From positions 1-51,788 of the forward strand of contig JALSJD010000195.1 of assembly GCA_026989535.1 (NCBI GenBank): a stretch of 51,788 bases of DNA. Reading direction: 5' to 3'. Source of the stretch: Cyclobacteriaceae bacterium. Lineage in GTDB: Bacteria > Bacteroidota > Bacteroidia > Cytophagales > Cyclobacteriaceae. Shown piece by piece: positions 21,034 to 29,348 of the stretch. Numbering within the stretch: the stretch's first letter is position 1; each line of letters begins with the position of its first letter. The notes beneath the pieces are model-generated. The model worked only from the letters and a program-made list of their open reading frames with translations, made no database searches and was not told where the DNA came from. The position numbers and the translations under genes were made by a program.

Positions 21034-22664
21034 ACAAAGCAATAACCATAAATAGTGCCGACAACCTTGGTGTGGCCTTAACAAACCTAGTTATTGGAGA
21101 GGAGGTGACTGTAAATAATGTGCTGGTGATTTTAAAAGAACACATCACGGCAAAACATAAGTTTGCTTTAGAAAACCTAGCTACAGGAGATGAAATGTAT
21201 ATGTATGGACTGGTGGTAGGTACAGCCAAAGAAAATATTAAACAAGGGCAAGCTATTACCGTAGAAAACACAGCACATAAAGCAACCAGTTTTACCACAA
21301 AAAAAGAAGGCGTATTTCAATGGACGGCACCCGATGTAAGCAAGTTCAAAGAGAGGACTTTTAACGGATACCCTCGTAAAGACGGACAGGTAGGCACTGC
21401 CAATTACTGGCTGGTGTTCCCGCTAGTGTTTTGTGAAAACAGAAATGTTCTCACCCTAAAAAAAGCCTTTGAAAAAGCATTAGGTTACGAACAATCTAAT
21501 GCGTACGAACAATTTACCGATAACTTGGTAGCAAATTACAAAAGAGGAACACCCCTTGATAACATTGCGTTAAAGAAAAAAGAGCCCAGTCAAAAACAAC
21601 TGTTCGACAACGTAAAAATTAAATTTATCACTCATCAGGCAGGTTGTGGTGGTACCCGCGAAGACAGTGACACCTTGTGTCGGCTACTAGCTGGCTACCT
21701 TAAAAACCCCAATGTGGCAGGTGCTACCGTTTTTAGTTTAGGTTGCCAAAATGCACAGGTAAGCATTCTTCAAAATGCCATCCAAACGATAACCGGGAAG
21801 CTTGAAAAACCGCTATATATATTTGACCAACAAGAAATAGGCAATGAAACCACACTTATGCAAGAGGCTATCAGGACCACCTTTAAAGGTTTAATAGAAG
21901 CCAATAAAATCAAACGCAAACCAACTCCTTTGTCAAAATTAACCATTGGGCTGGAATGTGGTGGTTCGGATGGATTTTCGGGCATTTCGGCTAACCCTGC
22001 TTTAGGCCATGTATCGGATATGATTACCGCTCTGGGAGGCAAGGCAATACTGGCCGAATTCCCCGAGCTTTGTGGTGTAGAACAAGAGTTGATTAACCGA
22101 ACCAACAACCCTACCCATGCTGATAAGTTTATAAAACTAATGCGGGCTTATGCTAAATTGGCAAAAGATGTTGGGTCGGGTTTTGATATGAACCCTTCGC
22201 CTGGCAATATTAAAGACGGGTTAATAACCGATGCCATGAAATCTGCCGGAGCTGCAAAAAAAGGAGGCACTTCTCCAATTAATGATGTGCTTGATTATAC
22301 AGAATATGTAAAAAACGATGGACTTAGTCTTTTGTGTACACCCGGCAACGATGTGGAATCAACCACTGGATTGGTAGGCTCCGGAGCTAACATAGTTTTG
22401 TTTACTACTGGATTAGGCACACCTACCGGAAACCCAATAACGCCTGTTTTAAAGGTTTCTTCCAATAACGCCTTGGCCGAAAAAATGACCGATATTATTG
22501 ATATAAATACCGGTGAAATTATAAGTGGCAGCAAAACAATTGAAGAGATGGGCGAAGAAATGCTGGAATACATTATTAAAATTGCCAATGGCGAGCTTCA
22601 ATCAAAAGCTGAATTATTGGGGCAAGATGATTTTATTCCTTGGAAGAGAGGGATTTCACTATAG
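21030..22664 (+). CDS. uxaA: Altronate dehydratase
   Basis: UxaA dehydrates altronate to 2-keto-3-deoxygluconate. The 544-residue protein has the N-terminal SAF-like domain (about 1-100) and the large catalytic domain with HQAGCGGTRED, FSLGCQNAQ, ECGGSDGFSGISANPALG and ETPELCGVE-like AEFPELCGVE. These Cys- and His-containing blocks bind the iron centre in this family. Length is normal for the fused form. The ATGA overlap with uxaB indicates translational coupling. KDG kinase and aldolase are not in the window. Confidence 0.95.
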   Translation: MNKAITINSADNLGVALTNLVIGEEVTVNNVLVILKEHITAKHKFALENLATGDEMYMYGLVVGTAKENIKQGQAITVENTAHKATSFTTKKEGVFQWTAPDVSKFKERTFNGYPRKDGQVGTANYWLVFPLVFCENRNVLTLKKAFEKALGYEQSNAYEQFTDNLVANYKRGTPLDNIALKKKEPSQKQLFDNVKIKFITHQAGCGGTREDSDTLCRLLAGYLKNPNVAGATVFSLGCQNAQVSILQNAIQTITGKLEKPLYIFDQQEIGNETTLMQEAIRTTFKGLIEANKIKRKPTPLSKLTIGLECGGSDGFSGISANPALGHVSDMITALGGKAILAEFPELCGVEQELINRTNNPTHADKFIKLMRAYAKLAKDVGSGFDMNPSPGNIKDGLITDAMKSAGAAKKGGTSPINDVLDYTEYVKNDGLSLLCTPGNDVESTTGLVGSGANIVLFTTGLGTPTGNPITPVLKVSSNNALAEKMTDIIDINTGEIISGSKTIEEMGEEMLEYIIKIANGELQSKAELLGQDDFIPWKRGISL

Positions 22665-22995: not shown

Positions 22996-23042
22996 AAAAA
23001 CTCCCCTCATGTTTTAATACTAAAATAGAGGGGAGTTTTTTG
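22996..23042 (+). terminator. Strong intrinsic terminator after the uxaCBA operon
   Basis: AAAAACTCCCCTC (22996-23008) pairs perfectly with GAGGGGAGTTTTT (23028-23040) and continues in T. It is 330 bp past uxaA, so it may end read-through or a short transcript. Confidence 0.8.
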
Positions 23043-23059: not shown

Positions 23060-23133
23060 AAAAAAAGAAACGCCTCGGTCAAGGCGTTTCAAGGTCAAAA
23101 ACTCAAAATAATTCAAGCTGTCTCCACAGCCTG
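23060..23133 (-). ncRNA. Candidate small RNA: hairpin plus intrinsic terminator
   Basis: On the minus strand a 10-bp hairpin, TTCAGGCTGT-GGAG-ACAGCTTGAA (23133 down to 23110), is followed about 20 nt later by GAAACGCCT...AGGCGTTTC (23090 down to 23067) and seven T. This is a textbook terminator with no protein gene feeding it. A near-consensus -7 box TACCGTTG (23147 down to 23140) sits just upstream. The product would be about 70-75 nt. I cannot assign it to a known RNA family. Confidence 0.4.
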
Positions 23134-23416
23134 AAATAACAACGGTATAAATATAGGGAATTGAAATAATAGTTTTAACATTTTTTAACAAAATCGATTA
23201 AAAAAATGCCCGATTTTAACCCATCGAACAAAAAACTGTCCGATTTCGTTACACTTTCTTATAATGCTAAGCTAAATATCGCTTCATTTGTGGTCTATTG
23301 CCATTGCAGTTCTTTGGCACAGTTTTAACTAGTTGTCTGATTCATAAGGTCTGATATCTTAATCAGACACCGACTTTATAGACAGACGCTAACAAGCAGT
23401 AACAGTTTTTAAGCAC

Positions 23417-24790
23417 GTGGAAAATAATTTAGGAAAAATATTGATTATAGATGATGACGAGGATGTACTATTAGCAGCTAAGCTGCTTCTCAAGAAACAT
23501 GCTCAACAAGTAATCATCGAAAAAAATCCAAAAAAGATACCTTTCTTACTAAATAATGATACGTATGATGTGATTTTACTGGATATGAATTTTAGTAAAG
23601 ACACCACCAGTGGTAAAGAAGGATTTTTCTGGCTCAACGAGATTAAAGAGAGAGACCCACGTGCTGTAGTCATATTAATTACTGCTTTTGGCGATGTAGA
23701 AATGGCCGTAAAAGCACTTAAAGAAGGTGCTACTGATTTTGTGCTTAAGCCTTGGCAAAATGATAAATTATTAGCCACCTTAAATACTGCGGTAAAATTA
23801 AAGCGCTCTTATAACGAAGTTGATAAACTTAGAAAAGCAAAGAAGCAATTAGAAGAAGATATTAACCAACCCTTTAGAGATATTATAGGCAGCAGCCCTG
23901 CTATGCAGCATATCTACAAATTAGTTGATAAAGTAGCAAGCACGGAGGCAAATGTGCTAATTCTTGGCGAAAATGGTACAGGAAAGGAACTGATAGCACG
24001 TGCTATTCATCAAAAATCGTTGCGAGCTGATAATGTGTATGTAGGGGTAGATATGGGAGCCATTACCGAAACATTATTTGAAAGTGAACTATTTGGCCAT
24101 AAAAAAGGCGCCTTTACAGATGCACATTCTGATAGAATCGGTCGTTTTGAATCGGCTAACGGGGGCACTTTGTTTTTAGATGAAATTGGCAACTTAAGTT
24201 TGCCACTCCAATCAAAATTATTGGCAGCACTGCAAAATCGTGAGATTACAAAACTCGGAGACAATACGGCTAAACCTATTGATATTAGACTGGTTTGTGC
24301 TACCAATATGCCTCTATTAGAAATGGTTGAAAGCAAAAGGTTTCGGCAAGATTTGCTCTACCGTATTAATACCGTAGAAATCAAGCTTCCTCCCCTCAGA
24401 GACCGTACCGAAGACATCCCTCCCCTAGCTAGCCATTTTATTGATATGTATGCCAAAAAGTATAGAAAGGAAGTAAGAGGAATACAGGAAGGTGCGATTG
24501 AAAAGTTACAGAAATATACATGGCCAGGCAATGTGAGAGAATTACAACACGCCATAGAAAGGGCCATCATTATGTCAGAAGAAGAGGAGTTGACCACCAT
24601 GGATTTCTTTTTTTTAAGTGGCACAAGTGCTAGTTCTACCGCAGGCGATAGCTTTAATTTAGAAGAAGTGGAACGCTCGGTAATCGAAAAAGTATTAGAA
24701 AAACATAATGGCAACATTTCCAAAGCAGCCAAAGAACTGGGCCTCACACGTGCTTCGCTTTATCGAAGACTTGAGAAGTACGGTCTTTAG
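23417..24790 (+). CDS. Sigma-54-dependent NtrC/AtoC-type response regulator
   Basis: The 457-residue regulator has a receiver domain (1-125) with the acidic pocket IDDDED and phospho-acceptor Asp56 in LLDMNF. A sigma-54 AAA+ domain (about 155-385) follows, with Walker A GENGTGKE, the loop GAFTDA and Walker [12 protein letters not shown] Fis-type HTH (about 415-457) ends in [20 protein letters not shown]. The canonical sigma-54 contact loop is GAFTGA; the Gly-to-Asp change is visible here. The start is GTG. The histidine kinase gene overlaps its 3' end, so the two form one system. Its targets are not evident. Confidence 0.93.
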
Positions 24791-26132
24791 CACGTATGAT
24801 AAAACCATACTTATTAGGCTGGGAGGCATATTATTTACCATGTTTTTACTGGTGGGTACTTGGCTCAACCATTCTTTATTTATTACTATTGCTATTTTTA
24901 TTGTGCTAATGGTAGTACAAATTATAAGCCTTGTTAAATATTTGCACGAGCCTAATGCAGATGTTAAAGAGATTTTGCGCACCATTAATAATCAAAATTA
25001 TTCGCCTGATGATGAGCTAAATTTTACCAATGCCACCGCAAGCCAATTACATAACTCTATTAATAAACTACTAAAGCGGCACAAAGAGCAATCGTCTCAT
25101 AAAAGCGAGGAGTCATTATTTTTTAAAAACATTGTGCAACATGCAGGCATTGGCCTTATTGCCATTGATGAAGAAGGCAAGGTTGAAGTGATGAATAATG
25201 CGGCAAAAAAATTGCTGCAAGTGTACGATATAAAGTATATAACCGAACTCCAAAATTTGAGCCAAGAACTGGTTGATATGTTTTTTAAGCTTAAAACAGG
25301 AGGGCGTGATTTGGCTAAATTAAATATTGATGGGGAGCTCGTGCAGTTATCAGTATATGCCATTGAACTTGTACTCAAAAAGAGGGCGTATAAAATGATA
25401 ACCTTGCAAAACATCAATTCTGAATTAGAAGAGATGGAAATGACGGCATGGCAAAATTTAGTACGCGTACTAACCCACGAAATAATGAACTCGGTTACTC
25501 CCATATCATCACTGGCTGGCACGGTAGAAAGCAACCTTAAAACACTTGGTAAAGCAAAAAAAACCTTAACTCTTGAACCCGAAGACAAAGAAGATTTACT
25601 ATTGGCAATTCATACCATACAACGAAGGAGCGAAGGCTTAATTCATTTTGTAAGAGATTTTAGAAACCTAACTCATATACCTCAACCTACGTTTGAAAAA
25701 TTGAGTGTTTCAGAGATTTTTGATGGAATTAATGTACTCTTATCCAAAGAAATACTAGCCAGCAAAATTGCTTTTACCACCACCATTAAGCCACAAACAC
25801 TGGTTATTGATGCCGACAAAGCTTTAATTGAACAAGTAATCATAAACCTTATTAAAAATGCCATTCAAGCTTTTGATGAGGAAACCAACCGATTAATTGA
25901 AGTAAATGCATTTAAAGATGATAAAAACCGAGTGGTAATTTCTGTAAAAGACAATGGAAGTGGAATTGAAGAAGAAGCATTATCCAGCATATTTACACCA
26001 TTTTTTACGACTAAAAAATCAGGGTCAGGCATTGGTCTTAGCCTTTCGCGCCAAATTATGCGTAAGCATAAAGGCTCTTTAAGCGTTGTTTCTAAAATTG
26101 ATGAAGGCACAGAATTTGTGATGAGATTTTGA
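24771..26132 (+). CDS. Sensor histidine kinase, partner of the NtrC-type regulator
   Basis: The kinase has two N-terminal transmembrane helices (ILIRLGGILFTMFLLVG and ITIAIFIVLMVVQIISLV), a HAMP/PAS-like region with GLIAIDEEGKVEVMNN, and an H-box LTHEIMNSVTPIS. Its ATPase domain carries the N-box VIINLIKNAIQAF, G1 VKDNGSGI, the F-box FTPFFTTKKSG and G2 SGIGLSLS. The first in-frame ATG (24708) would overlap the regulator by 83 bp and encode residues that are a shadow of it. The TTG at 24771 (20-bp overlap) is therefore more likely. It probably phosphorylates the adjacent regulator. The two helices enclose only a few residues, so it may sense a membrane or intracellular signal. Confidence 0.88.
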   Translation: MRSTVFSTYDKTILIRLGGILFTMFLLVGTWLNHSLFITIAIFIVLMVVQIISLVKYLHEPNADVKEILRTINNQNYSPDDELNFTNATASQLHNSINKLLKRHKEQSSHKSEESLFFKNIVQHAGIGLIAIDEEGKVEVMNNAAKKLLQVYDIKYITELQNLSQELVDMFFKLKTGGRDLAKLNIDGELVQLSVYAIELVLKKRAYKMITLQNINSELEEMEMTAWQNLVRVLTHEIMNSVTPISSLAGTVESNLKTLGKAKKTLTLEPEDKEDLLLAIHTIQRRSEGLIHFVRDFRNLTHIPQPTFEKLSVSEIFDGINVLLSKEILASKIAFTTTIKPQTLVIDADKALIEQVIINLIKNAIQAFDEETNRLIEVNAFKDDKNRVVISVKDNGSGIEEEALSSIFTPFFTTKKSGSGIGLSLSRQIMRKHKGSLSVVSKIDEGTEFVMRF

Positions 26133-26178: not shown

Positions 26179-26427
26179 ATGAAAGAGGTAGAAGTTGCCG
26201 AAAAAATAAAGCATATTTTGGTTGATAAGCTTGGTCTTGCCGAAACTGAAATTACTCTTGATGCCAATTTGGTAAAAGATTTAGGGGTCGATTCGTTAGA
26301 TTATGCAGAGCTTGTAATGGAGTTTGAACAAACTTTTGATATTCGCATACCTGATAGCGATGCCGAACAACTGGATACGATTGATGATGCTATTAATTAC
26401 ATTCACAAAAAAGCAAATAGCCAGTAG
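26179..26427 (+). CDS. Acyl carrier protein
   Basis: The 82-residue acidic protein carries the phosphopantetheine attachment motif GVDSLDYAEL with Ser39, and has the usual four-helix length. It lies 46 bp after the histidine kinase. Housekeeping ACP in Bacteroidota is usually encoded beside fabF, so this stand-alone copy is probably a second ACP serving a specialised acyl pathway. It could still be the main AcpP; the rest of the genome would decide. Confidence 0.9.
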   Translation: MKEVEVAEKIKHILVDKLGLAETEITLDANLVKDLGVDSLDYAELVMEFEQTFDIRIPDSDAEQLDTIDDAINYIHKKANSQ

Positions 26428-26844: not shown

Positions 26845-27975
26845 ATGAATAAAATACAAGCAGCATTATTTCAACAAGATTTTACCACAGTTTTTCAATT
26901 GCTTAATAATGGAGAGTCTTGGAATATTAATGATTCTAATACCCAACAAGCATTGCAAAACATAATTAAAACTGAAAACTTTAAATTACTACATCTTTTA
27001 ATAGAAAAGGACGTTTTTTCTCTGGATATTTTTGAATATGACCGTTTTCGTAACAGTATATTTGAGATATTTACTCAAGTTCCCTTTACAGATGGCATTA
27101 AGGCCTTTTTAGAAACCATAATTTCCGATATTGAAAATATAGATGATGAATTAGAAGGTACTACTTGGCTGGGTTTGGCAATTAGCAATAATTCTGACAA
27201 GGAATTGGTTGATTTTTTAATCGAAAATGGGTGCGATATCAATACTATTGATACCAAAGAACGAACCTATTTGTTTAAAACTGAGGATGTAAAAACTACG
27301 GAGTTTTTAATAAACCAAGGTATTGATATCAACAAAAAAGACCTTTTGGGAGAAACTGCTTTTTATGAGGTGGTTGTTTCAAAAAACACAGAGTTAATTC
27401 AATTTTATTTAGATAATGGCATTGATGTAAACTCACAAAACAACAAAGGAGAAACCGTTTATGATGTTGTTTGCTTTAAAATATTAGATGCCCAAATTTT
27501 TGAACAGTTGACAAACCATGAACCACTAAGGCTTGATTTAAAAGATACTCATGGACAATCTTTGTTTTTAAAAGTGGCTACTAATGTTTATTGTGATATT
27601 CAAATAGAAATACTCAAGATAATGTTAAATAATGGTGCTGATTTGTTTCAAGAAGAAATCGACAGGTATGGAGATACGGTAACCGTTTCTGATATCTTGG
27701 CACACAAAGAAATTAAAGTATTACAGATGTTAAACGATAACGGTTTTATAGATGTAGAAACCGCAGATAACAAAGGCAATACTTGGTTGCATAAAGTTTG
27801 TATGCAAGAATTGAATTTTGAGCAACGCAAAGCCCAGGAAATGTACAAAAAAGTAAAATTATTAACCAAAGCAGGTGCCAATCCAAATCTTAAAAATGAC
27901 GAAGATAAATCGCCAATAGATTATGCTCAAAACGACAATCTAAAAGCCAAGGTCTTACAACTATTAATGAACTAA
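26845..27975 (+). CDS. Ankyrin-repeat protein
   Basis: This 376-residue protein consists of degenerate ankyrin repeats of about 33 residues. Recognisable units include TTWLGLAISNNSDKELVDFL then IENGCDINTID, then LINQGIDINKKDLLGETAFY, FYLDNGIDVNSQNNKGETVY and a last KAGANPNLKNDEDKSPIDYA. There is no signal peptide or transmembrane helix, so it is likely cytosolic and mediates protein-protein contacts. It is 8 bp upstream of a second ankyrin gene. In bacteria such genes often accompany toxin-immunity or predator-interaction loci, but no toxin is visible here. Confidence 0.88.
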   Translation: MNKIQAALFQQDFTTVFQLLNNGESWNINDSNTQQALQNIIKTENFKLLHLLIEKDVFSLDIFEYDRFRNSIFEIFTQVPFTDGIKAFLETIISDIENIDDELEGTTWLGLAISNNSDKELVDFLIENGCDINTIDTKERTYLFKTEDVKTTEFLINQGIDINKKDLLGETAFYEVVVSKNTELIQFYLDNGIDVNSQNNKGETVYDVVCFKILDAQIFEQLTNHEPLRLDLKDTHGQSLFLKVATNVYCDIQIEILKIMLNNGADLFQEEIDRYGDTVTVSDILAHKEIKVLQMLNDNGFIDVETADNKGNTWLHKVCMQELNFEQRKAQEMYKKVKLLTKAGANPNLKNDEDKSPIDYAQNDNLKAKVLQLLMN

Positions 27976-27983
27976 GATAAAAA

Positions 27984-29348
27984 ATGTCCTTATCATTTAT
28001 ACAAGCCTGCGAAGCAGGAAAAAGAAAAATTGCAGAATTGCTATTAGATAGCGAAGTTGCAGATGTTAACTATACCGATGAAAAAGGTAGAACTGCCTTG
28101 CACTATGCTGCACACAGAGGCTATGCTGATATTGCCGAAAAGCTGCTAGCAAAAGGGGCAAAAATAGATTATGAAGAACATAATGGCGAAACGCCTTTAT
28201 TCTTTGCCTTTCTACAAAATCAGAAAAATACCGCTTTAATTTTATTAGAGAACGATGCAAATATCGAAATCAAAGATTATGAAGGAAACAGTTTATTACA
28301 CATTGCTGCCAAAAATGGTCAGATGGAGTTATGTACTAAGCTGATAGAAAAAGGCATGGAAGTAAATATTATAAACAATAATACCGAAACACCTTTGATG
28401 TTTGCTATTCTGTGTCGGAAAATGCCAACTGTAAAAATATTGGTAGAAGCAGGTGCAGATGTGAGTGCTTTAAATAAAATTGGCTATGCTCCTTTGCACA
28501 TTGCTATTGATGTTAAAAATATTCCGATAACTAAAATTTTGTTGGAAGCTGGTGCTTTTGTAGATCAGCCAACCACTGATGGAGATACACCACTTTTAAA
28601 AGCCTGTGTAGAAAAAAATAGAGTGCTGGCAAAACTTTTAATCGAAAATGGTGCCGATGTTTTTATCACCAATACAGAAGGAATGTCACCTATATATTAT
28701 GCTTGTGGCAATAATCAAAAAGAAGTCGTACAACTATTTTTAGAGCAAGGTTTAGATGTAAACTACACTTTGCCTTTATCTGGAGATCAAGATTCCATGA
28801 ACTCTTATTTAGACTGGGTTGAAACTGCTAGTAATTTGGATATGCAAAGTGCCTACACGCTAAATAGTAGTTACACCTATGGTGGCGAAAGTTTATTACA
28901 CTTGGCAGTAAAAAATGGTCATTTATATATGGTCAAACTCCTTATTGAAAAAGGTGCAAAAGTCAATATTCAAGACGAATCTGAAAATACCCCCTTACAT
29001 TATGCTGCATCTATCGGAAAAATTGATATTGCCAAACATTTATTAGAAAATAAAGCCGCAACAGATATAACTAACGTAAAATCTCAAAAAGCAATAGACT
29101 ACTCTAATATCAAAGGATTTAATGAGATTACCGAGCTCATTTTACAGTACATGCCCAAAGATACTAAAATTGAAAAGCCAAAAGTAACGGCATCTCCATC
29201 TATTGGAGAACCTGTTGTCGCAAGCAAATCTTTATCGGAAGAAGAAATAATGGCAAAGCTTAAAAAAGTTAAAAACTTGTTTGAAAACAATTTGATTGAT
29301 GAGCAAGAATACAAAGCTAAAAAAGCTAAATTGATAGAGCTATTGTAG
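27984..29348 (+). CDS. Ankyrin-repeat protein with C-terminal SHOCT domain
   Basis: The 454-residue protein has at least ten ankyrin repeats between about residues 1 and 385, many near-consensus (GRTALHYAAHRGYADIAEKL, GNSLLHIAAKNGQMELCTKL, NTPLHYAASIGKIDIAKHLL). After a short linker, the last ~35 residues (SEEEIMAKLKKVKNLFENNL then IDEQEYKAKKAKLIELL) match the SHOCT pattern, a small helical module found at protein ends and tied to oligomerisation or processing. No signal peptide. It is probably co-transcribed with the ankyrin gene before it and the lipoprotein gene after it (21 bp). Confidence 0.9.
   Translation: MSLSFIQACEAGKRKIAELLLDSEVADVNYTDEKGRTALHYAAHRGYADIAEKLLAKGAKIDYEEHNGETPLFFAFLQNQKNTALILLENDANIEIKDYEGNSLLHIAAKNGQMELCTKLIEKGMEVNIINNNTETPLMFAILCRKMPTVKILVEAGADVSALNKIGYAPLHIAIDVKNIPITKILLEAGAFVDQPTTDGDTPLLKACVEKNRVLAKLLIENGADVFITNTEGMSPIYYACGNNQKEVVQLFLEQGLDVNYTLPLSGDQDSMNSYLDWVETASNLDMQSAYTLNSSYTYGGESLLHLAVKNGHLYMVKLLIEKGAKVNIQDESENTPLHYAASIGKIDIAKHLLENKAATDITNVKSQKAIDYSNIKGFNEITELILQYMPKDTKIEKPKVTASPSIGEPVVASKSLSEEEIMAKLKKVKNLFENNLIDEQEYKAKKAKLIELL

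Follow-up and report, generated by a model that had tools for sequence, protein, structure and literature searches.

Between the uxaCBA operon and the genes of a two-component system, the window analyzed here (the whole stretch of DNA, 51,788 nucleotides long) carries on its minus strand what, judged from sequence, is most probably a real small RNA (sRNA) gene and not a chance hairpin (Table 1). A hairpin with a GGAG loop and a terminator with seven T had been described at this position in an earlier note as oriented to the minus strand, and all of these are present; on the plus strand no T-run follows the hairpin. The 81-nt strand folds with -29.0 kcal/mol (z = -6.2), and 0 of 200 shuffles folded equally well. 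A pattern scan taken alone was weak, with 8 terminator-like sites versus 5.5 expected (7 kb). No conserved reading frame was seen by eye in the sRNA when relatives were aligned; the gene has no ORF and combines its own predicted promoter with its own intrinsic terminator.

Table 1. Features of the sRNA locus and the adjoining two-component system, in coordinates of the window.
Feature	Position	Strand	Basis and remarks
Candidate small RNA gene	23060..23143	-	5' end near 23143, 3' end in T-run 23066-23060
Predicted promoter, conserved -7 box TATATTTA	23148..23155	-	Read 23155-23148; TATATT in aligned relatives and in the genus
5' hairpin, 10 bp, GGAG loop	23112..23135	-	Fold; compensatory changes in genus and family
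Single-stranded pairing region (seed) TATTTTGAGTTTTTGACCT	23092..23110	-	Near-invariant in 57 aligned sRNAs
Intrinsic terminator	23060..23090	-	10-bp stem (23090-23067) plus T7; stem in 57/57 aligned relatives, sequence divergent
Conserved block CGAAATCGGACAGTTTTTTGTTCG between sRNA and regulator	23225..23248	-	Identical in 4 of 5 genus loci
Possible sigma-54 -24 element TTGGCAC before response regulator	23314..23329	+	Read from sequence; -12 half weak
Response regulator, sigma-54 activator domain (NtrC type), GTG start	23417..24790	+	Pfam Response_reg, Sigma54_activat, HTH_8
Histidine kinase, partner of the regulator	24708..26132	+	Pfam HATPase_c; adjoins regulator in relatives

The locus is presumably transcribed, from a promoter that looks to be of the housekeeping type. 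The -7 box first proposed, TACCGTTG, does occur at 23147-23140 on the minus strand; it is variable even within the genus (TGCCGTTG, TGCTGTTG, and TAGCGTTG), and as a promoter box it would place the transcript start inside the 5' stem. The conserved box is instead TATATTTA, with TATATT in 42 of 57 aligned relatives and a GTTGTT start in 43 of 57. Counted from that start (~23143) to 23060, the predicted transcript measures ~80-84 nt, which replaces the ~72 nt of the earlier note, and a sequence-model match spans 23060-23143. Downstream, the sRNA is neighbored by uxaA, a convergent gene ending at 22664. A bidirectional terminator-like hairpin at 23000-23036 (23000-23008 with 23028-23036, by eye), whose loop is too long for the terminator scan, separates it from the sRNA. 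Elsewhere in the window, two neighboring ankyrin-repeat-like ORFs (26845-29348, by eye) lie downstream of a small acyl-carrier-protein-like ORF at 26179-26427 (by eye).

Conservation and structure of the small RNA

Comparative evidence supports the earlier claim of an independent sRNA. A DNA search of 59 relatives, the window's own genome included, matched 15 of them, with near-full-length matches in 4/4 other genomes of the genus; all four keep both hairpins and the T-run, the opposite of the loss in close relatives that the earlier note had named as refuting its claim. The 5' stem of the window, TTCAGGCTGT/ACAGCTTGAA, is replaced in the genus by TTAGGTTAT/ATAACCTAA, TTAGGTTGT/ACAACCTAA, and TCGGGTTAT/ATAGCCTGA, and these are true compensatory changes. 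Nine of 10 other matching genera share an exact core of 21-24 nt (one with a second, antisense match); this core is the single-stranded linker, and the hairpins around it differ from genome to genome.

Within a sample of 196 genomes of the family Cyclobacteriaceae, the pattern TATTTTGAGTTTTTGACCT with at most one mismatch was found in 67 genomes, and the reversed pattern yielded 9 matches. An sRNA gene was recognized in 63 of the 196 genomes, with one copy per genome in 62 of these 63 as labeled, and the other 133 have no recognizable copy. A scan of named genomes returned 101 stretches, nearly all from Cytophagales or unplaced Bacteroidota, among them Roseivirga, Fulvivirga, Reichenbachiella, Marinoscillum, Ekhidna, Imperialibacter, and MAGs. 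The five strays (Paenibacillus, Rhizobium, a cyanobacterial MAG, and two Bacteroidales MAGs) are exact matches of the chance type, and A-rich start regions do match the seed by chance now and then. A search of plasmids gave no match.

For alignment (A1), 60 sRNA genes were reduced to 59 by removal of near-identical sequence and to 57 by leaving out L044 and L240; a second alignment (A2) kept 43 of these 57 rows, the 14 without the standard 5' part being left out. The covariance model built from A2 came out without base pairs, with the hairpins misaligned, and was used as a sequence-only model. It matched 17 of 291 genomes of the order: 13 belong to the same family, their best scores reaching 34-67 bits, and 4, at 20-23 bits, lie outside it. 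The strict filters and limited first look of this search make absence elsewhere weak evidence.

The linker hardly varies among the 57 aligned sRNAs, and its near-invariant single-stranded stretch, 19 nt long, reads UAUUUUGAGUUUUUGACCU. A terminator stem stands directly 3' of it in every one of the 57, and stem positions 4-12 show all four Watson-Crick pair types. A 5' stem occurs in 51 of 57. Both counts come from a script that searched for stems itself and are biased towards pairing. When compared with shuffled upstream sequences, the real 5' stem score was reached in at most 10% of trials for 40 of the 57; in the other aligned sRNAs the 5' stem is weak or absent. A minority of sRNAs, from Marinoscillum, Ekhidna, and others, lack the standard 5' part. 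Upstream of the promoter of such short-form sRNAs, a palindrome like TGATAGTANTACTATCA was noticed (L098, L102, L104, L171, L180, L235, and L237). Separately, six sRNA loci have one gene group upstream on the opposite strand, TetR-like in both examples tested, which suggests TetR control of the short-form sRNA in loci with a TetR-type gene upstream.

Antisense sites at gene starts

The reverse complement of the seed occurs at the start codons of other genes: matches to the 19-mer reverse complement, AGGTCAAAAACTCAAAATA, that are not sRNA genes sit at gene starts. With at most one mismatch in 19, the 196-genome sample holds 123 distinct sites, versus 9 for the reversed pattern in the same genomes, and these divide into 64 sRNA-like sites (63 genomes) and 59 others. 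It should be noted that one site labeled sRNA-like (L065) is probably an antisense site and was counted as a target in the duplex-energy comparison. Of the 59 other sites, 55 belong to genomes that have the sRNA and 4 to the 133 without it. Forty-two of the 55 are antisense to a start region whose ORF encodes 70 aa or more, compared with 0 of 55 in a same-strand control; the remaining 13 have no start codon of an ORF of this length nearby. Within a wider set of 56 candidate targets, an ATG lies at -1 to +14 nt of the site end in 32. The sRNA carries, in other words, a conserved, accessible seed complementary to several mRNA start regions.

Duplex energies point in the same direction, with a mean of -35.5 kcal/mol for candidate targets and their own sRNA versus -18.8 kcal/mol for composition-shuffled targets. 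The sRNA of the same genome pairs modestly better than the sRNAs of other genomes (mean percentile 0.61, p = 0.004, the genomes not being independent). A 12-nt core followed by ATGAAA gave 41 distinct sites, or 37 without 4 sRNA genes read backward, and the reversed core gave 8 (the listing has 42 rows, one site, in G136, being present twice). Of the 37, 20 lie in the 63 sRNA-positive genomes and 17 in the 133 negative ones, and because of these 17 the short core alone is noisy. Looser patterns applied across the genus, including a search that allowed G:U pairs, did not rise above their controls. The site in Marinoscillum targets starts with AAGTC, and the sRNA shows no corresponding change. 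Tandem pairs of anti-seed sites in one 5' UTR were observed at L131/L211 and at L140.

Pfam was run on 50 of the 56 candidate target ORFs, leaving out L238, L133, L134, L177, L184, and L231, and 17 of these 50 proteins scored above the curated cut-off. They include MacB_PCD plus FtsX permeases (4), DUF4097 proteins (4), an ABC ATPase, an HlyD membrane-fusion protein, a PadR regulator, DUF4251 and DUF4252 proteins, a lipocalin, a CarboxypepD_reg/TonB-receptor-like protein, an alcohol dehydrogenase, and a phage tail protein. Four further candidates match outer-membrane barrel models below the cut-off, and many others are, by eye, short proteins with signal-peptide-like starts. Two target groups recur without a Pfam family, their products beginning MNTIGQKLKI and MVKNSKY. 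In two members of the genus the site in the GQKLKI gene falls in codons 4-10; no full-length GQKLKI orthologue was found in the window's genome.

That genome (G000) has only one good site, G000:C155:29210 (L256, 1480-1655), with one G:U pair; a second site, in the window, is at chance level. The C155 site is preceded by a sigma-54-like promoter, TTGGCAC-N5-TTGG, and followed by ~150 nt without a clear ORF and then a terminator-like hairpin. Its duplex, at -30.6 kcal/mol, does not go beyond the best of 200 shuffles (-33.3 kcal/mol). The transcript could be a sponge RNA or the message of a small protein.

An exact anti-seed site 7 nt before an ATG was also observed in viral contigs (L399, L402, L403, and L404) and in L225, a phage-tail-like gene in a Roseivirga MAG; these may be chance matches or real phage targets. 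No sRNA gene was recognized by eye in the 8 viral contigs with antisense-type matches.

The two-component system and sigma-54 elements

The position between uxaCBA and the two-component system given in the earlier note is correct, and the linkage seen in relatives is with the two-component side and not with the uxa operon. Of 57 loci with enough sequence, 29, the window among them, have a homologue of the response regulator at most 1.4 kb from the sRNA, and in all 29 it is divergent from the sRNA; its identity is at least 66% in 28 of these loci and 40% in one. The regulator is itself widespread, matched at E <= 1e-150 in 30 of 36 relatives, including genomes without the sRNA. Since many sRNA-negative genomes keep it, regulator and sRNA are not inseparable. 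No seed-like match with fewer than 4 mismatches that could mark a replacement sRNA was found beside the regulator in 11 loci without the sRNA or in loci with the sRNA elsewhere. Terminator-like hairpins next to the regulator in L385, L387, and L379 end a protein gene; another such hairpin, in L386, is without explanation.

Before the response regulator, TGGCA(C/T)AGTTTTAA is kept in the genus, and the conserved block between sRNA and regulator (Table 1) is a possible regulator binding site. The window's genome encodes sigma-54. Among 74 antisense sites, 16 have a strict sigma-54 element at most 70 nt upstream, against an expectation of 0.0008 per site; the set of 74 includes 5 sites from non-Cytophagales records and orthologous pairs (L065/L068 and L066/L069). 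In 10 of the 16 the element stands 27-32 nt from the site, which places the message start at or just before the site. Because the sRNA promoter looks housekeeping-type, the sigma-54 activator is not expected to drive the sRNA. The two-component system may belong to the same circuit.

On the downstream side of the sRNA, 21 of 65 loci carry a HlyD-group ORF in the same orientation, mostly ~200 nt away. It is accompanied in ~15 of the 21 by an ABC ATPase (Pfam on one example each) and, in another example, by an outer-membrane efflux protein (Pfam). A sigma-54-type element, TGGCAY-N5-TTG, separates the terminator from the HlyD-type ORF in 18 of 18 loci checked. GTACA-type repeats were observed before this element in loci with such an HlyD/ABC/OEP efflux operon (e.g., L219 and L180) and may be regulator sites.

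Proposed mechanism and relation to known systems

We consider it likely that the sRNA is a trans-acting repressor of envelope genes that base-pairs with A-rich translation-initiation regions. Such an sRNA, ~80-84 nt long, would have a housekeeping-type promoter and a terminator of its own, and the U-rich linker between its two hairpins would remain single-stranded. The linker would pair over ~16-19 nt with an A-rich initiation region, mostly just 5' of the ATG and sometimes in the first codons; pairing would exclude the ribosome and translation would be repressed, probably followed by mRNA decay, all in bacteria where Hfq was not found. The targets would serve largely envelope functions, namely MacB/FtsX-type ABC permeases and their partners, DUF4097 and DUF4251/4252 proteins, and small secreted proteins. 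Roughly one site in five would follow a sigma-54 promoter, and in most of these cases the site would form the very 5' end of the message. A U-rich seed facing an A-rich initiation region may do in Bacteroidota what seeds covering a Shine-Dalgarno sequence do elsewhere. The direction of the effect is what we infer from relatives in function: we commit to translational repression because GibS and FopS of Bacteroides thetaiotaomicron repress through extended single-stranded seeds at start regions (PMC7366714, PMC11697453).

A more far-reaching reading, which we put forward as speculative and rather doubtful, would make the sRNA a dedicated post-transcriptional arm of the sigma-54 two-component system. 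Several sigma-54 messages would have evolved 5' ends that begin with the antisense site, one RNA would gate part of the sigma-54 envelope regulon, and some sigma-54 transcripts without a clear ORF, such as that of G000:C155, would titrate the sRNA as sponges while the system is active.

The same sRNA could also have the opposite effect, with pairing protecting 5' ends and stabilizing or activating the target mRNAs. Sites at the first ~20 nt of the message, as in the 10 sigma-54 cases above, would suit this, since pairing there could block decay from the 5' end; the start codons found so close to the duplex end, however, lie where known Bacteroides sRNAs repress (PMC7366714, PMC11697453), and we regard activation as unlikely. 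Very improbable, in our estimate, is that the 19-mer is a transcription-factor binding site shared by the sRNA gene and the target genes, with incidental hairpins. A sequence that recurs near promoters, and follows sigma-54 elements, could be an operator, but the strand of the 19-mer is fixed at start regions, as the same-strand control shows. A start codon falls within ~45 nt, yet the sites occupy both leaders and first codons, in different frames (GQKLKI and VKNSK), and in every aligned sRNA the 19-mer runs directly into a terminator. Equally hard to credit is a cis-acting leader or attenuator whose terminator controls read-through into the downstream gene, for which the same-strand HlyD-type ORFs might speak, but these have, in the 18 loci checked, a sigma-54-type element of their own after the terminator, the window's downstream gene is convergent, and the invariant part is the linker with its matches in trans and not a terminator/antiterminator switch.

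Trans-acting repression by base pairing, the preferred reading, can be compared with several known systems. Targets are known for few trans-acting sRNAs of Bacteroidota. Among the matches listed in searches of the open-access literature (some listings being dominated by unrelated papers), there was no description of a Cytophagales sRNA, and nothing relevant on an sRNA with Fulvivirga or Cytophagales or on sigma-54 with MacB. The enterobacterial envelope-stress sRNAs MicA, RybB, and CpxQ, as is proposed for the present one, are tied to an envelope regulator and pair near the start codons of envelope mRNAs. They depend on Hfq, use short seeds, and are under sigma-E or Cpx control, and a sequence relation to the present sRNA is not expected. 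Assignment as an Hfq-dependent sRNA was rejected: Hfq was found in none of 36 genomes by a search that was positive in 5 of 14 control genomes.

Rfp18 of Flavobacterium psychrophilum is likewise a conserved Bacteroidota sRNA with one pairing region and several predicted secreted or surface targets, whose deletion lowers the mRNA of two metalloproteases. It is set apart by a pairing region in its third stem-loop and by its reported conservation in the genus Flavobacterium (PMC9723704). We read the present sRNA as an analogue of GibS and FopS, which are trans-encoded Bacteroidota sRNAs with a conserved extended single-stranded seed and a terminator hairpin, work without Hfq, and pair at translation-initiation regions, many of them of outer-membrane proteins (PMC7366714, PMC11697453); FopS also has a housekeeping-type promoter (PMC11697453). 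The differences are that their seed is at the 5' end whereas here it lies between two hairpins, that FopS has 14 paralogs whereas a single copy is the rule here, and that the present sRNA has other targets, sigma-54 messages among them, and is linked to a sigma-54 two-component system. FopS has been deposited in Rfam according to its authors (PMC11697453), if not necessarily in the release searched here. The Rfam search suggested in the earlier note returned no match at the gathering score in the window or in 5 relatives, to Flavo-1, 6S, or any other family. At a permissive cut-off it gave 10 weak matches to scattered, unrelated families and none named FopS.

One short region, traceable with its predicted targets through dozens of genera, offers a directly testable regulon. 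It suggests how sRNAs may silence genes without Hfq, through a U-rich seed of 16-19 nt at A-rich initiation regions, and it points to RNA regulation being connected with sigma-54 control of the envelope. On this comparison the sRNA appears to be a new family of a known kind, similar to GibS and FopS in its presumed working and not to be filed under them.
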